A stretch of DNA of 21,229 bases from a virus. The notes beneath the pieces are model-generated. The model was not told the DNA's origin and searched no databases. It saw nothing but the letters and a program-made list of their open reading frames with translations. The position numbers and the translations under genes were made by a program. Positions within the stretch are counted from its first letter, which is position 1, and each line of letters begins with the position of its first letter. Where the stretch lies: positions 1 to 21,229 of the IMG/VR virus record IMGVR_UViG_3300008110_000646, one strand, 5' to 3'. This document shows, one piece after another, positions 2,922-16,529 of this stretch.

Positions 2922-4121
2922 ATGGCAATAGTAGATTCCACAAATTGGTCAACTAGATCTTTAAATATTTTTAATACTTATTATGCTTTACCAACCCAAT
3001 ATTCTTCATTATGGGGAACATTTTTATTTGATAATTCTATTCAAGATCAAGGAATATATGAGTTTGACATTAGATTTTTAGAAACTGGAATACAAGTATT
3101 TGGTACAGCTGCAGACGACGAAGCTCAATTTTATATTGATGGTGAATATTTGGGAGATTTTGGTCCTTTAAATGATAACCAAAGAATATTTACCACAAAA
3201 TATTATGATGCTCTTACTGTACATCGTCTTACATTTATAAGAACAGATACAGGAATAAAGCCAACATCAATTGCTGCAAGATGGATTCGTAGTGAATATA
3301 ATCCAGTAGATATTAGAGATTTTGATGCTGCACCAAGAGTATTAACCAATACAACTAATACAATATTAAATTGGGATATTGCCAATGCTAGAAAAATTGA
3401 AATTAACCAAAATGTAGGTGATGTTACTGGAAAAACAACTATAACTTATACTTTACCAGCAATAACTGGAATTGATGCTCCAATATCTGTTACTGGCGAT
3501 GATTATGTATTAGTTACAACTGGAGTTTCGGAATCTTACACAAAAAGTATTACTGTAAATAATAATGCTGTTGTAAAATTACGTTTTCCTTCTCCAGATT
3601 TTAGTCAAGATCCTTTTACATTAGATAATAAAATAGAATACTATGTTGATTTTGGCACAATTAGAAAATATTTTACTGTAGTTACGAGAGCTCCAAATGA
3701 TAATGAAATTTTTGATTTTAGTGATGTAAAAAATTCTGTTCCTTATCCAGTACCTCCTGGAAATAGTGAAAATCCTCCGCAGTATCTAGTTTCTCCAGAA
3801 ACAGTAGAACCATCTGCAGATCAATGGCAAGTTGAACTACAATACCCAAACAACATAACTTTACAATCTGGTGTTGAAGTAAAAACTACATACAATGATA
3901 AAGCTCAAGTTAGAGTAAGACCATTTGGTGGTTCTTGGGGATCTTGGGTTAATACAGAATATTTGTATGATGAAATAATTGATCCTGGTCCAAAAACGAT
4001 TGAAAATATGAATTGGGCTACATTGGGAACTAGAAATAATGGAAATATATCTAATTCACAACCAAGATCTATTAATACTAGATCTTCTGGTATTTTAACA
4101 GCAAAAAATATAGCACAATAA
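2922..4121 (+). CDS. Fibre-associated protein with N-terminal jelly-roll and Ig-like domains, 399 aa
   Basis: Residues about 1-135 look like a carbohydrate-binding or PA14-like beta-sandwich: a GIYEFDIRF strand, then AQFYIDGEYLGDFG, then RLTFIR. Residues about 140-180 follow the Ig-like pattern T-I-L-x-W-x-x-x-N-A-x-x-x-x-I with a closing TYTLPA. A unit beginning ITGIDAP (about 180-257) and a C-terminal domain beginning NEIFDF (about 258-375) recur in the two glycine-rich proteins downstream. This gene therefore shares its C-terminal half with them but has a different N-terminal head. It starts three bases after the upstream stop. A receptor-binding or fibre role on the virion is inferred from domains and context. 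I do not recognise a named family for the whole protein. Confidence 0.75.
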   Translation: MAIVDSTNWSTRSLNIFNTYYALPTQYSSLWGTFLFDNSIQDQGIYEFDIRFLETGIQVFGTAADDEAQFYIDGEYLGDFGPLNDNQRIFTTKYYDALTVHRLTFIRTDTGIKPTSIAARWIRSEYNPVDIRDFDAAPRVLTNTTNTILNWDIANARKIEINQNVGDVTGKTTITYTLPAITGIDAPISVTGDDYVLVTTGVSESYTKSITVNNNAVVKLRFPSPDFSQDPFTLDNKIEYYVDFGTIRKYFTVVTRAPNDNEIFDFSDVKNSVPYPVPPGNSENPPQYLVSPETVEPSADQWQVELQYPNNITLQSGVEVKTTYNDKAQVRVRPFGGSWGSWVNTEYLYDEIIDPGPKTIENMNWATLGTRNNGNISNSQPRSINTRSSGILTAKNIAQ

Positions 4122-4123
4122 AA

Positions 4124-6055
4124 ATGCCAAATAAGATTAAGTTCGGAACTTCTGGTGGATTAGGATTTGACGGCACTGATGATGCTGAAAATTTTGATGC
4201 TCCCGCAAATGTGATAAGAGTATCTTATATTTGTTTAGGAGCAGGTGGTGGTGGCGGTGCATCTGGTGGTGGAGATCCATCTGGTGGCGGAGGCGGTGGA
4301 GGCGGATTATCTAAAGGTACTTTAGAAGTAGATCCACTTGGTAACATAAGAGTTAGAGCTGGAGGTGGTGGAGGAGGGAGCCCATCTACTGGTAGCGGTT
4401 CCGAAGATGGGAAAGATGGACAAGATAGTTTTGTTAGAACCAGCTACGGCCAAAGAACTGGAGGTGGGGGAAAAGGGGGTAGAACATTTTATGGTGGTAA
4501 TGGAGGAAATGGCAATGAGAGAGATGGAGTAAATGGAGAAAATCCAGTAGCAGTTAATCCTTTATTTCCAATAGGATGTAGAGGTGGTGGTGCTGCTAGA
4601 TTAAATTCCGTTGCTGGTAGAGGATCATTTGCTGGTGCTGGGGGAAATGGAACAACTTTTAATTTTAGTGCTAATGGATTTACAACACCAGAAGTAGAAG
4701 CTTCTTCTACCAATGGAGCTAGTTATGGTGGAGGTGGTGGAGGTAGTGTAGACGCAGTTGAAATTGATTATGGTGGAGGAGATCAAGCACCTGTTTATAA
4801 TATTGTTAATATTAGTAGACCTGGGGGTGGGGCAGGTGGTATTGCATTTGTTGGATGGGTAGTATTAACTGCTCCTAAATCTATATTGAGATCTGGAGAA
4901 CCTGTAACAGTTACATATTCAGATTCTTTTGGAAATACAGGAACGGTGGAAACATCTTTTACGAATGAAACTGAAGCAAATGTACAACAAGAATACAAAT
5001 ATACCGATAATTTAGGAGCACAATCAAGTATTACATTTACTATTCTACCGAAAGTAAAAATTAAATCTTTAATAGCATCTCCAAATCCACAAACTAGTGG
5101 TGAAGATGGAATACCAAATTACAATACAATTTTAATTTGGGAAGGTATTAGTGTTTTATCCGCTGTTGCTACTAGAAACGATTCTGTAGTATCAGCTACA
5201 TGGGAACAAAAAGAACAACCAACAGATTCAACACAACCTCCCGTATTTTGGGGATCTGGCAGTAAATCTGTAACAAATTTATATCAATCAATTTCTACTG
5301 GATCTTCTCAACCTGGATCAGATACCACATACACTTTAACTGCGACAGATGGGTTTAATACAGCTACAGCCACTGTTACTGTAAAAGCGTATAATGATAA
5401 TTGCCCAGATACGATTTCAATACCAGATCAATTAGGAAAAGAACCTGGAGAAGAAATAAAAATAACCACATCCCCAGTAACAGGAATTGATATGGTTACT
5501 TCTGTTGTGTGTGGTCCAGGAGTACAAGTTATCGGAAGTGGTGGAAGTGGTTATACAACATCAACATCTATAATTTCTGGTTCCACTTTAAGTATACGTG
5601 TTTATGCAGAGCCTTTTAATACTGATGAAAATGGTTTAGTTAATGAAAAAACTGTTTCGTTAACTGTTGGATGTCAAACTATATCATTTAAAGTTCAGAC
5701 TAGAGCTCCAAATGTTAATGAAATATTTGATTTTGGGGATAACCAATTTGCATTTCCATATCCTAAAGTGGATACTAGAGTTATTGGAGAAGTTCTTCCA
5801 GATGGAGGAACATATAAATCACCAACAGAATATTTAAATTCACCAACTATTGTTGAACCAACATCCACAGCATGGGAAGTTGAATTGGAATCTCCATATG
5901 GAGTTCAAATAAAAGCAAAAGATATAAAATATTCACCACCTACTACTACATCATATAATGATATAAGTTCACAAAATAATACTAATTTAGAAGTTAATGT
6001 CCAACGTCAAGGTAATCAACCTAATAATAATTGGACTAAACCAAATATAATCTAA
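4124..6055 (+). CDS. Glycine-rich adhesin-like tail protein with Ig-like modules, 643 aa
   Basis: Four blocks are visible. Residues about 31-245 are a glycine-rich domain with long GG/GGG runs between short hydrophobic strands (SYICLGAGGG, then IRVRAGGG, then a closing YGGGGGGSV). This resembles glycine-rich domains of phage adhesins, where polyglycine-II helices pack together. About 310-420 is an Ig-like domain with an SPNPQ start and a TYTLTA strand. About 425-530 is a unit starting with PDQLGKEPGE and containing GID. About 535-643 is the EIFDFGDNQF domain. The last three blocks match the gene at 6327-7946 in order and in many residues. The ATG lies two bases after the previous stop. A host-recognition function is inferred; the module homology is directly visible. 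Confidence 0.78.
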   Translation: MPNKIKFGTSGGLGFDGTDDAENFDAPANVIRVSYICLGAGGGGGASGGGDPSGGGGGGGGLSKGTLEVDPLGNIRVRAGGGGGGSPSTGSGSEDGKDGQDSFVRTSYGQRTGGGGKGGRTFYGGNGGNGNERDGVNGENPVAVNPLFPIGCRGGGAARLNSVAGRGSFAGAGGNGTTFNFSANGFTTPEVEASSTNGASYGGGGGGSVDAVEIDYGGGDQAPVYNIVNISRPGGGAGGIAFVGWVVLTAPKSILRSGEPVTVTYSDSFGNTGTVETSFTNETEANVQQEYKYTDNLGAQSSITFTILPKVKIKSLIASPNPQTSGEDGIPNYNTILIWEGISVLSAVATRNDSVVSATWEQKEQPTDSTQPPVFWGSGSKSVTNLYQSISTGSSQPGSDTTYTLTATDGFNTATATVTVKAYNDNCPDTISIPDQLGKEPGEEIKITTSPVTGIDMVTSVVCGPGVQVIGSGGSGYTTSTSIISGSTLSIRVYAEPFNTDENGLVNEKTVSLTVGCQTISFKVQTRAPNVNEIFDFGDNQFAFPYPKVDTRVIGEVLPDGGTYKSPTEYLNSPTIVEPTSTAWEVELESPYGVQIKAKDIKYSPPTTTSYNDISSQNNTNLEVNVQRQGNQPNNNWTKPNII

Positions 6056-6326: not shown

Positions 6327-7946
6327 ATGTCAACAATAAATCGTTCTTTCCGATTTGACGATAACGGAACTGCAATTATTCCAGCAAATTCAATTGATAT
6401 TAGATTAACTATTCGGGGAGCACGAGGTGGCTCTGGTGGTGGTGATAGTGGTGGACCTGGGGGTGGATATGGAAATGGCAGATATGGTGCATTTTCTTTA
6501 CCAGATTATATTGGTAGAACTTTAGGAATGTATCCTGGAGATGCTGGTCAAGGTGGTCCAGGATGTTTTGGTAGAGGAACTAGTAGATCTGGAGGAGATA
6601 TTTCTGGGGGTGGTGGAGGATCTGCTTCTGGATGTTCTGGATCTGGTGGAGGTGGGGGTAGTGGTAGTGGTATTACTTGTAGTACAATAGGTAATGGATG
6701 GTTAATTGTTGCTGGCGGCGGCGGTGGCGGTGGCGGTGGATCATGGAATCGTGGTGGTAGTGGTGGCGGTGGATCTGGTGGTTGGGGAGCAACCACTGGT
6801 GGAATAGGTGCAAGTGGTGGTAGCAATGGTAATGGAGCTAGCTGCAGTGATGGTGCTGGTGGTGGTGGTGGTGGCGGTGGTGCTGGCGGCGGTGGAGGAG
6901 GTAGTGGAGGTTGTGATAATCAAAGGGGAGGAACTGGTGGTGGTGGAGGGGGAAGTCAATACAGAAGTGATATAACAACTCTTTTAGCAAGTGGAGATCA
7001 TTCTGGAGATGGCTACATAACTTTAACATACACAGAAGTAACTCCAGAAATTACAGAATTTAGTGCATCACCAAATCCACAAGAAAGTTCTGATGGAATA
7101 CCAAAATATGATACTACATTAACATGGTCAACCAGAGATGCAACAAGTGTTACGATTAATGGATCTGCGGTTAATGCTAGTGGATCTTTAAATATAACAA
7201 ATTTACTTCAATCAACTACAGGAACTAATTCTCCAGCATCTTCAAGTTATACTTTGCTAGCGTGTAATGGACCGTCTTGTGTTTCTAGTGAAATAATAGT
7301 AGATGCTTATAATGACAACACCCCAGATATTTTCACAATTCCAGATCAATTAAATAAAAATCCACTTGAAGAAATTTTTATATCCACACCAGAAATTACT
7401 GGTATAGATATGCCAACATTTGTTATTTGTGGTCCTGAAGTATCAGTAGAAACTGATAATGGATTTTCTACTCAAAGAATTATAACAAATGGGCAATCAA
7501 TTACAATAAAAGTTTTTTCTAACGACTTTAATAAAGACGAAAATGGATTAATAAGTGAGAAAACATGTTATATTACTATTGGCACAAGAACATATAATTT
7601 TAAAGTCCAAACAAGAGCACCAGTAATTCAAGAAATATTTGATTTTGGAGATAATCAGTTTACAATTCCTTATCCAAAAATTGATACTACTGATGAAATA
7701 CCACAACCATACATAGGATCTCCAACTATCATAGAAGAATCTATTAATGATTGGGAAGTTGAATTGGAAAATCCATATGGGGTTCAAATTAAAACAAAAG
7801 ATTTAAGATATTCTCCACCAAATACCACAGAATATACAGATATTAGTTCACAAAATACTTCAAAAGTTGAAGTAAATGTTAAAAGACAGGGGGATATAGA
7901 GTTTGATGAAAATAATTGGCAAACACCAAATATAAGTAATTTATAA
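6327..7946 (+). CDS. Glycine-rich adhesin-like tail protein with Ig-like modules, 539 aa
   Basis: This is a paralogue of the protein encoded at 4124-6055 with the same module order. Residues about 31-209 are extremely glycine-rich, with runs of up to nine Gly, and contain five cysteines (80, 103, 118, 172, 195). About 240-330 is an Ig-like domain with the SASPNPQ start and the strands TLTWS and YTLLA. About 332-430 is the IPDQLNKNPLEE/ITGIDMP unit. About 433-539 is the EIFDFGDNQF domain ending QTPNISNL. The glycine region is coded by GGT/GGC/GGA trinucleotide tracts that could change length in frame. A virion surface adhesin is the likely role, by analogy with glycine-rich phage tip adhesins. 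It starts two bases after the preceding small gene. Confidence 0.78.
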   Translation: MSTINRSFRFDDNGTAIIPANSIDIRLTIRGARGGSGGGDSGGPGGGYGNGRYGAFSLPDYIGRTLGMYPGDAGQGGPGCFGRGTSRSGGDISGGGGGSASGCSGSGGGGGSGSGITCSTIGNGWLIVAGGGGGGGGGSWNRGGSGGGGSGGWGATTGGIGASGGSNGNGASCSDGAGGGGGGGGAGGGGGGSGGCDNQRGGTGGGGGGSQYRSDITTLLASGDHSGDGYITLTYTEVTPEITEFSASPNPQESSDGIPKYDTTLTWSTRDATSVTINGSAVNASGSLNITNLLQSTTGTNSPASSSYTLLACNGPSCVSSEIIVDAYNDNTPDIFTIPDQLNKNPLEEIFISTPEITGIDMPTFVICGPEVSVETDNGFSTQRIITNGQSITIKVFSNDFNKDENGLISEKTCYITIGTRTYNFKVQTRAPVIQEIFDFGDNQFTIPYPKIDTTDEIPQPYIGSPTIIEESINDWEVELENPYGVQIKTKDLRYSPPNTTEYTDISSQNTSKVEVNVKRQGDIEFDENNWQTPNISNL

Positions 7947-8398: not shown

Positions 8399-11300
8399 AT
8401 GGCTAGAATTTTAGTAGGTAAAGGGGATCAGGTTCAAATTAGATATCCCACACCATCAACTTGGAATACAAGAACTACTGTTCAAGTTCAAATTGGTACT
8501 GGATTAGATCCTACTGATGTGACTTTTGGTACAAGAATTCCAGATGCAAAACCAGATCAATTTAATTTTAGTAACCAAAGTGGAGCATTAACTCCTGGTG
8601 GAACTCCATTAACAGCTTTTGAAAAAAATACTTTTTACTATTCAAATTCCATTTTAATTAATGGTATTGAAATTTTGGTTCCTGTCAGTATTTCTGTAAC
8701 TACATCTGGACCAAGAAATTTATCCGCAAATATAACACAAGCAGCTTTTGAGGTTAATAATAGCGGAACTTGGGTAACTTCTGCACAAGTTAAAAATGGC
8801 GATGTAATTCGTTTAAGAATTAAAACCGAAAATTGGTATACAACAACGACAAATGTTACGCTTAGTGTATCAGATGAAACTTGGGGAGCAAATTTAGGGT
8901 TAAGTTCTAATACAACTGTTGATACATGGTCTATTACAACTAGACCACAAGTTCAAAATATACCACAATTTTCTTTTGTTGACTATATTGATGTAACAGC
9001 AGATGAATTTGGAAGTTATAAAACTACAACAATCCCAGTCAGTAATATTGATAATGATGCTGTATTAAGAGCAACTTCTACCAATAATGTACAAATTTCT
9101 AGTGATAATATTAATTGGTCTCAAGCATTATCTGGTCTAATTCTTGGTGACACAATTTACACTAGAATTTCTATTGGATCTTATACTACAAAAACCACTG
9201 GAGCTGTGAGAGTTTATGCAGTTGCAAATGAGACATATACTAGAGGTTCAAATTCTTATGATAATAACACTGCAGGAACATATGGAAGACCAGATTTAGG
9301 AGTAACAGAAAGATATACTGTAGTTCAAACTCTTGGGGATGTAACAGATAATTGGCAAGTATGGACAGAAGTAGATAGATATCCAGATTCTATTTCTCTC
9401 AGTCCAATTTATGCTATTTCTGATGGTGAAAAAGTATATGTTTCTAGTCAAAATTCATACTCCAGAGCAGAAGCATCAGAAAATGGCGATGAATTTTGGT
9501 ATTATGCAGATTTTAATATTACTGGTCTTGGAGTTGAATACACATCTGGAACTTATTCTGATTTAGAAGAACCATTTAACTTTACTTCAACCGCTAAACC
9601 ACAATTACCACTTGATACTTCATCTGTAAATGGTAGAGATGTAGAAATAAGATGTAGAATAGCACAAGGCAATGGTACTCTACGTAAAAATGATACTGGA
9701 GAATGGGTACAATCGTTGTATGTAAAAAATGGTGATAAAGTTACTGTTCGTCAACTATCTAGTGAATTATATAATCAACAATTAACGACTAAAATTATCA
9801 TTGATGGTCCTCCAGATGGAGCTCCATCTCCATATTCAAACCCAACAAATGGTCCTAGTCCAGCAAATAGATCGTTTGAAAATTTAGAAGATACAATTAC
9901 AATTAAAACTAGGTTAGCTAGAAATACTCCATATCCATTTAAAGGATCCAATGTTTATACAGCTGATCCTGGTGAATCATTATTAATTGGAATTCCTCTT
10001 GGTGGATATGATATACCAGTAGATGCAACAATTGTATCTCAATCTGCAGCAGCAGCAGCACAGATTAGTTTTGATGGATCAAATTATTCTTCATCAACTT
10101 TAACAGATATACCTTTAACAGCAACTACATTAAGTTTAAGATTTTCTGCTTCAACATCATATGGTGGATTGTCTTTCGTTACTTACAGTATAGGCGACTA
10201 TACAGATACTGTCTATGCATATACTAGAAAAAGAGGGTGGATTTATAGTGTATATACTGGAAATGTTAATAGAACTCAGCCAGAAAATTTTGTGGTGCCA
10301 GATTATGCAGAAAATTTTGATTTTGTTTTAGTTGGTGCTGGAGGAGGAAATGGTGGTGATGATGCTCCAAATAGTTATGGTGGTCGTGGTGGATTTGGTA
10401 ATTTACTAAGAGGATCTATTGCATTACCAGATTCATTTTTTCTCGGAAACGATTACACCGTAAAATTATATCCTGGAGCAAGGGGAGGAACTGGTCTTAA
10501 TTATACAGCCAATGCTCCTGGAGGAACTGGTGGATGGGGATATGCAACTGGAGGAGATGGTGGAAGTTCTGGACTTGGAGATAGTTCTGGTTCTGGTGGC
10601 GGTGGTGGAGGAGCTTCTGCTATTGCATTTAATAATGGAACGTTGATTGTTCTTGCTGGTGGAGGTGCTGGAGGTGGAGGAGCTGGTAATGATACAGAAA
10701 TACAAAAAGAAAATCAAAATGGTAATTATAATGGATTTGGCTCTCTTCAAAATACTTTAAATGGATTGAATTTAAGTGGTATTGATGGACAAAATAATTT
10801 ATCTGAAGGTGGTGGTGCTGGTGGATCTGGTGGAGGTTTTGGTAGTGCTGGAATTATACCAACTAACAAACTTGATGAATTTGGTCAAATTATACAAACA
10901 AATGATTTAGATGCTACTGGAGGAACTGGTGGAGGTGCATATTATGATTCCACATTAGTTAATTTGGCATCAACAAATAATTTTTCAAATTTTGGAGCTG
11001 GAGCACAAGCAAATGGAATAGTTGTGATTGGAATACCTCCACAAGACAGAACACCTAATCCATTTTTATTTACAGCAATATTATCAGCATCTCCAAATAC
11101 AATATATGAATCAGAAAAAGTAGAAATTACTGGTATTACTGGTAGAGTATTGGTTAGTGCATTTGAAAATCAAGCAAAAATAAGAGTATGTGATACGAAT
11201 CAGCAAAATTGCAGTGCCTATACATCAACATCACAATATGTAAGAAACGGAGAATGGATTCAAGTTCAAATGACTACTGGATTAGATTATTATACAACTT

Positions 11301-13826: not shown

Positions 13827-14771
13827 ATGGCATCAACTTTTAATCCTAATGATTTCATATTACAGGAAATTGCTCCTCCAGAAAAAAAATCTACTATTTT
13901 AGAATATGATTCTAAAAATAGAATGATTTTAGTGCGTGTTTTTAATAAAGAAAACGAAACAAAATATAATGCAATTTATCTTAGTGAGCAGTTAAATCAA
14001 AACGTTTTAACTAATATTCCAGCAGAATTATCTGATGAAAAAGATAAAATTGTTTTGTTTGGCATCTATGATGATGAAACATTTATTATGTACAAAGAAA
14101 AAATGAAATATGATTTTGCAACTCAACAAGCTAAATGGGTGAATTATGAGGTAACTGATGCTACAGTTGATGATGCAAAAGAAATATTTTCAGTATTAAA
14201 ATCTGCTATATTCATTCAACAAACAACAGATTCTGAAGAAAGAAATAATGCTGTTTTAGAAATTTTAACTAAAGATGAATATATTGATGATTTTTATAAT
14301 AAATTAGTAAATAGAAGAGATGATCTTTTAAGAACAAGCGATTATAGAATTTTAAGTGACTATCCAGAATTTTTTGATGGCGAGCAAATTTTGTGGATAA
14401 AATGGAGAGATGAAGTTAGAAATTGTGTAAAACCTTTTAGTGATTTTGATGATGAGTTAGATTATTTAATCTATTTGCAGGAATTTAAATGGCCAGTTGA
14501 TCCGCTAGTTTATTATTCCAAATATCCAAATAAAGAAGTAGAATATTTAGCAACAGAAGATCAATATAATGCTACACCAGAAAGAGTATCAACTGGCGTT
14601 CAAGAAATTATTAGAAAAAATGCTATTGCTATTATCAATCAACAAAAACTTAGAAATGATCAGGGTATTCCAGTAAACAAACAAATCTATGACATCATTA
14701 AAAAATATAATTTAAGTCAAGATTTACTTGATTTTGATCTTTCTAACTTAAATATAGGAGATGTATCATGA
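13827..14771 (+). CDS. Tail-fibre assembly chaperone-like protein, 314 aa
   Basis: Residues 163-200 contain RRDDLLRTSDYRILSDYP, then W190-I-K-W-RDEVRN. This is close to the R-D-x-L-L-x-x-T-D-W-x-x-L-x-D-x-P ... W-x-x-Y-R-x-x-L-R-D signature of phage tail (fibre) assembly chaperones, proteins usually coded right behind the fibre they help to fold. Residues 1-110 form a beta-rich part (ILEYDSKNRMILVRVFN, IVLFGIYDDETFIMY), and 202-314 are charged and mainly helical. It starts 22 bases after the giant fibre stop, as expected for its chaperone. TCTAAATA at 13800-13807 resembles a weak late promoter. The chaperone assignment is inferred from the motif and position; the N-terminal part could instead be structural. 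Confidence 0.6.
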   Translation: MASTFNPNDFILQEIAPPEKKSTILEYDSKNRMILVRVFNKENETKYNAIYLSEQLNQNVLTNIPAELSDEKDKIVLFGIYDDETFIMYKEKMKYDFATQQAKWVNYEVTDATVDDAKEIFSVLKSAIFIQQTTDSEERNNAVLEILTKDEYIDDFYNKLVNRRDDLLRTSDYRILSDYPEFFDGEQILWIKWRDEVRNCVKPFSDFDDELDYLIYLQEFKWPVDPLVYYSKYPNKEVEYLATEDQYNATPERVSTGVQEIIRKNAIAIINQQKLRNDQGIPVNKQIYDIIKKYNLSQDLLDFDLSNLNIGDVS

Positions 14772-15148
14772 TTGTACATGATTTTTTAGAATTTGGAAGA
14801 TATATTACAGCAAAAGATCATTCAACAGTAATGATTCTTCGTACTGTTGGTCCAGATGGAGTTACTGATACTCAAAAAGCAAATGAGATTTATTCTGCAT
14901 ATCATCTTAATTTAGAACCACTGGGTGAAGGATTATTTGATAAATTATTATATAATGAATTTGTGTTCATTCAATTTAATTCAGAACAAGAAGCATATGA
15001 TTTTGCTTTAGAAAATTTACCAATGAATAAAAAAAATATTGATTCTGATTATTTTGTACAATTTTATATTTTTTCTGATGGTGAATTTGCATATGGTAAT
15101 AATAGTGTTAAAGGATTAACTGAGTTACCATATCTATCTAACCCCTGA
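14768..15148 (+). CDS. Unknown protein closing the tail-fibre block, 126 aa
   Basis: The ATG overlaps the previous stop as ATGA, so translation is probably coupled to the chaperone-like gene. The protein is acidic and aromatic-rich, with a strand/helix alternation (FVFIQFNSEQEAYDFALENLP) that looks like a small alpha/beta domain. I recognise no family. It lacks a signal peptide and membrane segments. Its AT-rich sequence matches the fibre block, whereas the next gene uses CGN arginine codons, so it marks the end of the structural block. The stop at 15146-15148 lies inside the left arm of the inverted repeat that begins the control region. Confidence 0.6.
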   Translation: MIVHDFLEFGRYITAKDHSTVMILRTVGPDGVTDTQKANEIYSAYHLNLEPLGEGLFDKLLYNEFVFIQFNSEQEAYDFALENLPMNKKNIDSDYFVQFYIFSDGEFAYGNNSVKGLTELPYLSNP

Positions 15149-15155
15149 CAGAGTT

Positions 15156-15184
15156 ATTCTACTGGGTTTCTTGGGGTTTGTCAA
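15156..15184 (-). promoter_or_regulatory. Leftward sigma70-like promoter (antisense to the tail-fibre block)
   Basis: On the minus strand the -35 box is TTGACA (complement of 15179-15184, consensus) and the -10 box is TAGAAT (complement of 15156-15161, five of six), with exactly 17 bases between them. No minus-strand gene of credible length follows to the left, so the product would be antisense RNA against 14768-15148 and perhaps beyond. The match is strong by sequence; activity is inferred. Confidence 0.5.
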
Positions 15185-15188
15185 CCCC
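15173..15188. repeat. Inner palindrome GGGGTT-TGTC-AACCCC, possible hairpin
   Basis: This is a perfect 6-base stem with a 4-base loop. In RNA from the tail-fibre block it forms a stable GC hairpin and could help end transcription, but only a very short T stretch (CTTG) follows, so an intrinsic terminator is not convincing. Its right half overlaps the leftward -35 box (15179-15184), which fits an operator as well. Confidence 0.45.
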
Positions 15189-15217
15189 TTGTAACGGTTA
15201 GCATTTTCTGACAGGGG

Positions 15218-15246
15218 TTGACAAGCATCAGTTTTCGTGCCATACT
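15218..15246 (+). promoter_or_regulatory. Rightward sigma70-like promoter of the helicase gene
   Basis: The -35 box TTGACA (15218-15223) is a consensus match, followed by 17 bases and a -10 box CATACT (15241-15246, four of six). TGC directly before the -10 box fits an extended -10 motif. The expected start near 15253 leaves a leader of about 17 bases before the ATG at 15270. This is the host-polymerase promoter type used by early phage genes. Confidence 0.62.
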
Positions 15247-15269
15247 ATCTTTGTTGAAACGCCTTTGCC

Positions 15270-16496
15270 ATGAAACTCCGCCCCCAGCAAGAGCAATCCC
15301 TCGTCGCCATGCAACGCCATCAGTTCGGGCAAATCATCGCTCCTACTGGTGCTGGCAAAACTCTTATTATGATTTTCGATGCAATGCGTCGGATGCGTGA
15401 GTCTACCACACCACAGACCATTTTGATCTGTGCTCCCCGTATCCTTCTAGCAGAGCAATTGTCCAGTGAGTTTCTTGAGTTTATTGATAATGCTAACGTT
15501 ATTCACGTTCACAGTGGAGAAACGCATCATAAAAGCACCACCAACCCGCAAGTAATCGCTGCTTGGGATGAGATTGTTGACAATCATAAGCTCATCTTCA
15601 CTACATACAACTCTCTTCGTCGTTTGAATGAATCTGAGATCAATATCGACGTTGCCTACTTTGATGAAGCACATAATGCAGTCCGTACCGATTTTTTTGA
15701 TTCTGTGGCATCTTGCAATGCTACTAATTACTATTATTTTACTGCTACACCCAAGCATCGTCGTTCTTCTCTCGGAACTGGGATGAACAACAAGATTGTT
15801 TTTGGTCAGATTATTTCCAACATCTCTGCACCAGAACTTGTTGAGCAAGGTTGCATCCTGCGTCCTACCATTGATATTCACGAGGTTGATTTCGAACGTC
15901 AGAAAGGTCTCAGTGCTGCTGACAACGACCATGAGACCCTACTTGAAATGATTGACGGACTGGACGCTAGAAACGCCCAGAAGGTGCTTGTAGCTGCTCC
16001 TAGTAGCAAAGTACTGTGGCAGATGCTTTCTCGCACTACGGTCCTTCGAGACCTGTCTGAGCGTGGTTACGATGTCCTCCACATCACCAGCAAGTTTGGT
16101 GCTTATGTCAACCAAACCAAAGTTGATCGTGAGACATTCTTTGATACCTTCAATGCTTGGGGTCAGCAACCTGAGCGTAAGTTCATCATCTTCCACTACA
16201 GCATTCTGTCTGAAGGTATCAACGTTCATGGTCTTACTCACACTATTCTGCTTCGCAATCTTCCCATCGTGGAGATGGCACAAACCATCGGTCGTGTGAT
16301 TCGTCTTAACAAAGATGATGCACAAGACATTGCTGCTGGTAAGATTGAGGCAGGTAACTTTGCGATGTATCGCAAGAGCACTGGTTTCGTGACTGTTCCT
16401 GTGTTCAAAAACTACGGCAAGAAAACCCAGCGTCGTCTGGAAGAAGTCGTAGATACTATCTTTGTGAAAGGTCAACCTGCTATTGATGTTCGTTGA
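15270..16496 (+). CDS. SF2 DEAH-box helicase (UvsW/Res-type), 408 aa
   Basis: This is an ATP-dependent DNA or RNA helicase. Motifs in order are an N-terminal LRPQQEQSL (3-11), Walker A APTGAGKT (24-31), motif Ia around APRILLAEQL (55-64), DEAH (132-135), TAT (158-160) and motif VI QTIGRVIR (338-345). The order and complete motifs show an intact two-RecA-domain enzyme. T4 UvsW, which unwinds recombination intermediates and R-loops, is about 500 residues. This protein is shorter and lacks room for its extra N-terminal domain, so a UvsW-like role is possible but not proven, and I leave the symbol empty. It starts behind the rightward promoter. About 27 of 28 arginines use CGN codons, against AGA in the upstream fibre genes, pointing to a different expression class or origin. 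Confidence 0.88.
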   Translation: MKLRPQQEQSLVAMQRHQFGQIIAPTGAGKTLIMIFDAMRRMRESTTPQTILICAPRILLAEQLSSEFLEFIDNANVIHVHSGETHHKSTTNPQVIAAWDEIVDNHKLIFTTYNSLRRLNESEINIDVAYFDEAHNAVRTDFFDSVASCNATNYYYFTATPKHRRSSLGTGMNNKIVFGQIISNISAPELVEQGCILRPTIDIHEVDFERQKGLSAADNDHETLLEMIDGLDARNAQKVLVAAPSSKVLWQMLSRTTVLRDLSERGYDVLHITSKFGAYVNQTKVDRETFFDTFNAWGQQPERKFIIFHYSILSEGINVHGLTHTILLRNLPIVEMAQTIGRVIRLNKDDAQDIAAGKIEAGNFAMYRKSTGFVTVPVFKNYGKKTQRRLEEVVDTIFVKGQPAIDVR

Positions 16497-16529
16497 GCAT
16501 CAATAAATATGGTAGATGCAACGTAAATT

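Follow-up and report, generated by a model that had tools for sequence, protein, structure and literature searches.

The border between the tail genes and a helicase gene in a T4-like cyanophage raises the question of whether the two promoters that appear to leave it in opposite directions belong to a regulatory switch, and what might read that switch. The window, that is the whole stretch of DNA analysed, is a viral contig of 21,229 bases; at the junction orf126, downstream of the tail genes, lies on the left and an SF2 helicase gene on the right. The first-pass annotation had described divergent promoters with identical -35 surroundings inside nested, co-centred inverted repeats. The features to which the text refers are:

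14768 to 15148, plus strand: orf126 (phrog_4883), a small gene that follows the tail genes; predicted antisense target of the leftward promoter
15140 to 15155, minus strand: operator-like imperfect dyad AACTC-TGTCAG-GGGTT, its core conserved across the Kyanoviridae and its arms covarying
15149, minus strand: predicted leftward start site, the 7th base past the -10 box, placed by the usual sigma-70 spacing
15156 to 15161, minus strand: leftward -10 box TAGAAT (TACAAT, TATAAT, TAAAAT or TAGGAT in relatives)
15162 to 15178, minus strand: leftward spacer of 17 bp, constant in length and variable in sequence
15173 to 15188: GGGGTT-TGTC-AACCCC, enclosing the leftward -35 box; the inner palindrome of the first-pass annotation, not conserved in distant relatives
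15179 to 15184, minus strand: leftward -35 box TTGACA, invariant in nearly all copies
15207 to 15219, plus strand: right arm of the annotated outer repeat, resembling the common CTGKCACAGGGG before the helicase terminator-promoter; the arm match is confined to the closest relatives
15213 to 15235, plus strand: degenerate remnant of a terminator hairpin lacking the 3' arm, with the rightward -35 box inside its loop (GGGGG-TTGACAG-CCCCC-TTTTTT in relatives)
15218 to 15223, plus strand: rightward -35 box TTGACA of the helicase promoter
15241 to 15246, plus strand: rightward -10 box CATACT, with TG upstream at 15238-15239
15270 to 16496, plus strand: SF2 helicase (ResIII/DEAD), 408 aa
16530 to 16847, plus strand: gene of the phrog_507 (T4-GC49) family

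RNA from the predicted start at 15149 would run antisense to orf126. An assignment of the helicase as UvsW was dropped, UvsW being a separate gene (S-PM2 encodes both, in different places); the window protein is the second helicase of cyanomyoviruses. At the junction (14001-16500) the G+C content rises sharply, from about 0.27 to about 0.45, which suggests separate origins for the tail module and the helicase cluster. The tail-fibre-like genes of the window contain glycine-rich repeat tracts at 4230-4880, 6427-6956 and 10314-10942.

Much of the annotated geometry was recovered from the letters. Both strands carry GGGGTTGACAA (at 15214-15224 and, as the complement, at 15178-15188), with no third site in the window when one mismatch is allowed; both -35 boxes read TTGACA with spacers of 17 bp, the leftward -10 box is TAGAAT and the rightward one CATACT with TG upstream of it, and the outer arms (15140-15152 and 15207-15219) differ by one mismatch. 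The inner repeat had been called a perfect palindrome, which it is not, its 6-bp arms being separated by a non-palindromic spacer of 4 nt. The two centres do lie about one base apart (15179.5 for the outer repeat, 15180.5 for the inner), but they fall on the leftward -35 box and not between the promoters, whose midpoint is at about 15201. Promoter-like sites as such were at chance level, 5 found against 5.6 expected in shuffles, but none of 150 dinucleotide shuffles of 15120-15270 (mean 6.3) produced a perfect inverted repeat as long as the 12 bp seen here. On the minus strand, 15184-15156 fits the pattern TTGACA, 16–18 bp, TANNNT. The consensus TTGACA stands where a T4 middle promoter would have a MotA box near -30 replacing the -35 box, and the -10 boxes are not the TATAAATA box of T4 late promoters.

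The helicase is encoded by 71 viral contigs, of which 60 unique upstream regions were compared. The rightward promoter (-35 TTGAC, TG-CATACT) is nearly universal among these relatives; a regular-expression survey counted it in 28/60, a lower bound because the expression was too strict and missed promoters of the L016 type. In 18 of the 60 loci a hairpin surrounds the rightward -35 box, and in at least 16 it is followed by a T-run. In such a nested arrangement, GGGGG-TTGACAG-CCCCC-TTTTTT, the loop holds the -35 box and the T-run forms the spacer, so that a single sequence both terminates the tail-gene transcript and begins that of the helicase. Helicase promoters nested in this way in an intrinsic terminator lie just upstream of position 3001 in loci L005, L009, L012, L019-L021, L040, L043, L067 and L073. 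The hairpin is degenerate in the window, where the remnant folds at -4.7 kcal/mol (z 0.81); four regions were folded, and the results for L005 and L014 were not used, the intended hairpin having been missed. A partial inverted repeat, CAGT...AACTGKCACA, recurs ahead of the terminator-promoter in helicase loci L007-L043.

The leftward boxes and the 15140-15155 core have a narrower distribution at this junction. They are kept in 10 of the 60 unique loci, including several types with different spacers; these loci share TTGACA, 17 bp, TANAAT and the next 15–16 bases, and differ in the spacer. The divergent promoters are strongly supported by comparison across relatives, and the leftward one is real as judged by conservation. 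The annotation had also looked to related cyanophages for conservation of both repeat arms, and here it failed: 50/60 keep the genes and have lost the arms and the leftward boxes, which marks the element as an acquisition at the helicase junction with its standing home elsewhere, upstream of gp55.

The same comparison bears on the suggestion that one protein, bound to the nested co-centred repeats of 15140-15219, silences both promoters. The repeat arms occur in the window and its closest relatives (L003, L004, L068, L072), the only ones to keep the outer right arm, and the 12-bp repeat exceeds the shuffles. L005, L012, L016-L018, L024 and the isolate Sf-FR1, however, have neither the outer right arm nor the inner hairpin and retain both promoters, so the repeats do not behave as a functional unit. 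Silencing of both promoters in the window would also be geometrically weak, because some 70 bp lie between the centre of the dyad at 15140-15155 and the rightward -35 box. We consider this arrangement very improbable. What stands of the proposed regulator is its support from the dyad, the nested inverted repeats being lineage-specific.

When 15136-15275 was searched against phage records, the match fell in intergenic sequence at the locus of gp55, the late sigma factor, in the gap between a 'methylamine utilization' gene and gp55 (S-PM2, Sf-FR1, S-MbCM7, S-RSM4, S-CAM1, DSL-LC03); isolate Syn9 also has a copy at the gp55 site. To avoid circularity, gp55 loci were then fetched by the gp55 protein alone (n=80, 73 unique) and scanned with a weight matrix built from 83 copies. 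A leftward TTGAC-16/18-TANNNT promoter, antisense and divergent to gp55, was present upstream in 80/80; in Melnitz-2 no copy was found near gp55 with the patterns used. The rightward gp55 promoter stands back-to-back with it, the best-scoring -35 boxes starting 5–14 bp apart in 51 of the 80 loci, and in 22 (e.g. L330, L339, L345) the boxes overlap as TTGTCA/TGACAA, read both ways. In Syn9, TTGACAAGTTTGTCAA (L491 near 23700) interleaves the two. With -35 boxes shared or interleaved, the two promoters could hardly be occupied together. A gene in the place of the 'methylamine utilization' gene was seen beside the antisense promoter at every isolate gp55 locus inspected; the 'methylamine utilization' gene itself (T4-GC139, phrog_471; L184:3577-3975) matches Sm_like (PF16243) above the cut-off. 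Pelagibacter phage HTVC008M (L492 430-720), of the same phage family with a non-cyanobacterial host, has a leftward TTGACA-17-TATAAT upstream of gp55 followed by the dyad AGGCATGTGCCT, in which a perfect AGGCA-TG-TGCCT repeats the layout with other arms.

Beyond the gp55 site, most isolate genomes carry one or two extra copies. A matrix trained on the window copy only, run over six whole genomes, gave one or two copies per genome scoring 27–31 against a shuffled maximum of 17.7, and the copies so found were recovered by other patterns. With a pattern that leaves the variable core positions free, most further genomes had one to three sites, while the reversed pattern, used as a control, gave one or none; some of the free-pattern sites look like chance matches, e.g. 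in DSL-LC03 and at 116295 in S-MbCM7. The exact core was found in about 100 viral contigs. The copies away from gp55 mostly face a gene in sense, usually an early-looking one: phrog_507 in S-PM2 and an IMG/VR relative, cpeT after cp12 in ACG-2014b, a 2OG oxygenase/cpeT pair in S-SZBM1, a resolvase-like gene and small genes. Such placement marks a working promoter type, and the leftward reading in the window is therefore no accident. An assignment of the second copy to the phrog_507 gene was rejected, most phrog_507 loci lacking the element.

In one large clade the 67-aa product phrog_718 (L499-L543) is almost always encoded behind a promoter of the leftward type, which was present in 35/37 unique loci with leaders of 18–42 nt. 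It is a candidate member, or controller, of a regulon. As the regulator itself it was set aside, its model (mean pLDDT 81) being beta-beta-alpha-alpha-beta and lacking a recognised DNA-binding fold.

The dyad of the window reads AACTCTGTCAGGGGTT on the minus strand, directly after TAGAAT; it fits AAC-NN-TGTN(2-3)-NN-GTT and overlaps the stop codon of orf126 (TGA, 15146-15148). TTGACA-17-TAGAAT-AACTCTGTCAGGGGTT belongs to a promoter family of the Kyanoviridae that is apparently undescribed. Across the family the imperfect dyad measures 15–16 bp, with half-sites 10 or 11 bp apart, or one helical turn; it is predicted to extend from -6 to about +10 relative to the leftward start, a stretch where repressors often sit. 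It varies by lineage (AACTC-TGTCA-GGGTT, AACAG-TGTCG-CTGTT, AACCT-TGTAG-AGGTT, AACTG-TGTAG-CAGTT), and the arms covary: 44 distinct cores gave 163 Watson-Crick pairs against 143.4 +/- 3.2 with arms swapped, and the inner positions 4 and 5 gave 48 pairs against 29.8 +/- 3.0. A search of Rfam returned no family match at the gathering score or at E <= 1.

Departures from symmetry on the promoter strand are G.T 27 times and A.C twice, 18 of the G.T cases being one inherited pair. This excess would also suit a hairpin of the promoter strand. Such a hairpin, formed in the nontemplate DNA or at the 5' end of the transcript, would be the target of a phage RNA-binding protein or would govern RNA decay, and the genome-specific core would serve as an RNA tag. 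A loop of 5 to 6 nt is in keeping with this, and the Sm-like gene that adjoins the gp55 copy, together with the G.T excess, keeps an RNA-level explanation alive. With the usual sigma-70 spacing, however, transcription would start inside the loop and leave the left arm outside the transcript, and the 5-bp stem is mismatched in several genomes (AACAC/GGGTT, AACCA/GGGTT) that still share the core. A hairpin is accordingly unlikely as the explanation.

The core is also specific to the genome that carries it. Core identity is 0.85 within genomes and 0.57 between them (label permutation p < 0.0002), rising to 0.93 against 0.44 at the free positions, whereas spacer identity is 0.39 within and 0.36 between (p = 0.25). 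The core occurs twice in S-SZBM1 (CAACACTGTCCAGGGTTG), three times in ACG-2014b (AACACTGT) and in S-RIM2 (AACCATGT), and twice in Syn9 (AACACTG; NC_008296.2, 123698-123733 on the minus strand and 52741 on the plus) and in contig G016 (AGCAATGTGGCGCTTT). Both copies in the isolate Sf-FR1, which has the helicase arrangement of the window, carry AACTCTGYCAGGGTT; the window contig itself does not include the gp55 region. Against an operator, some genomes, such as ACG-2014d (AACAATGTCAGAT), have copies with a common core that is not a dyad. In the genomes scanned the core was found only attached to the promoter. Recombination could in principle keep copies alike within a genome, but the spacers are not alike; shared descent would have kept both, and the simplest cause of like cores beside unrelated spacers is a trans-acting, sequence-specific partner.

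That partner might be a regulator of the host, with a specificity that varies between hosts, and early cyanophage promoters are thought to be read by the host RNA polymerase (PMC2984593). Phages recorded on the same strain, WH7803, nevertheless differ in core (AACTCT in S-PM2 and S-MbCM7, AACCAT in S-CAM8), which argues for a phage-encoded partner. The exact class-1 core, moreover, is absent from host genomes, as from all 84,980 bacterial and archaeal species genomes searched, a result confined to the exact core; on the same ground a copied host promoter was rejected. We regard a host regulator as quite unlikely.

The leftward RNA might instead act as in T4, where ori(uvsY) is an origin promoter whose RNA primes DNA synthesis. 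In favour of this, the position of the cyanophage element near uvsY-uvsW-gp55, with other copies near baseplate and tail genes, resembles that of the T4 origin sites. The sense copies, on the other hand, drive ordinary genes, and in six genomes the GC skew, whole or at third codon positions, shows no change at the copies and so lends no support to an origin. We give this explanation hardly any credence.

Our preferred reading is that 15140-15184 probably represents one copy of a promoter-operator module conserved in cyanomyoviruses and served by a putative phage regulator. A regulon operator over the predicted leftward start site is well supported by the comparisons; the start site, the existence and identity of the regulator, repression as opposed to activation, and any effect on gp55 or the helicase we infer. 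Leftward transcription by the host RNA polymerase, of sigma-70 type, would begin at about 15149. A putative phage-encoded protein, probably dimeric, would bind the half-sites AAC-x-x ... x-x-GTT, which lie 10–11 bp from each other on the same face of the helix and span -6 to about +10. In this way it would repress, or time, the window-type promoter along with its sister copies in that genome. At the gp55 copy, divergent with back-to-back or shared -35 boxes, the same protein could tie expression of the late sigma factor to a few early genes; in the lineage of the window, a copy stands ahead of the second helicase.

Several described systems resemble this module in part. T4-like cyanophages lack MotA, AsiA, Alt and Mod, and their early and middle transcription control has been described as unclear; a putative middle promoter, mentioned for P-SSM4 and Syn9 and not for S-PM2, may or may not overlap the leftward-type element (PMC2984593). 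T4 middle promoters are likewise phage-timed promoters on host polymerase, but cyanomyoviruses have no MotA or AsiA (PMC2984593) and the present element follows the -10 box instead of lying at -30. The host-like (sigma-70) early promoters of cyanophages have the same TTGACA-17-TATAAT-type boxes for the unmodified host polymerase (PMC2984593), to which the module adds a genome-matched dyad after the -10 box, a low copy number and the antisense gp55 copy. In the PeSL cassettes of T4-like phages (Arbiol 2010; Comeau 2014, as cited in PMC4503421) a promoter and a stem-loop stand together between genes. As the cassettes are described there, the rightward helicase promoter within its terminator may be a close fit, whereas the leftward module has no terminator and its dyad is short, genome-specific and over the start site. 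The CfrI RNA of S-PM2, about 225 nt at psbA, is a case of antisense transcription in a cyanophage; the antisense RNA of the module, at gp55 and helicase junctions, is only proposed. Temperate phages of the lambda type have repressor-operator regulons with several operators of one specificity per genome lying over promoter start sites, and this specificity differs between related phages. The module is alike in both respects, but it occurs in lytic phages, its regulator is putative and the gp55 copy faces away from any gene.

It is possible, at somewhat less than even odds, that lytic cyanomyoviruses encode a fast-evolving DNA-binding regulator of a small sigma-70 regulon, one promoter of which is antisense and divergent to gp55, and that this regulator fills the MotA/AsiA gap and times the early-to-late switch. 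A set of promoters that share a genome-specific dyad, with one copy facing away from the late sigma gene, offers a concrete handle on early and middle control in cyanophages: with the sites listed, the protein that binds them can be sought directly, and both copies are present in Syn9. If true, phages that rank among the most abundant in the sea would have a type of regulon more familiar from temperate phages.
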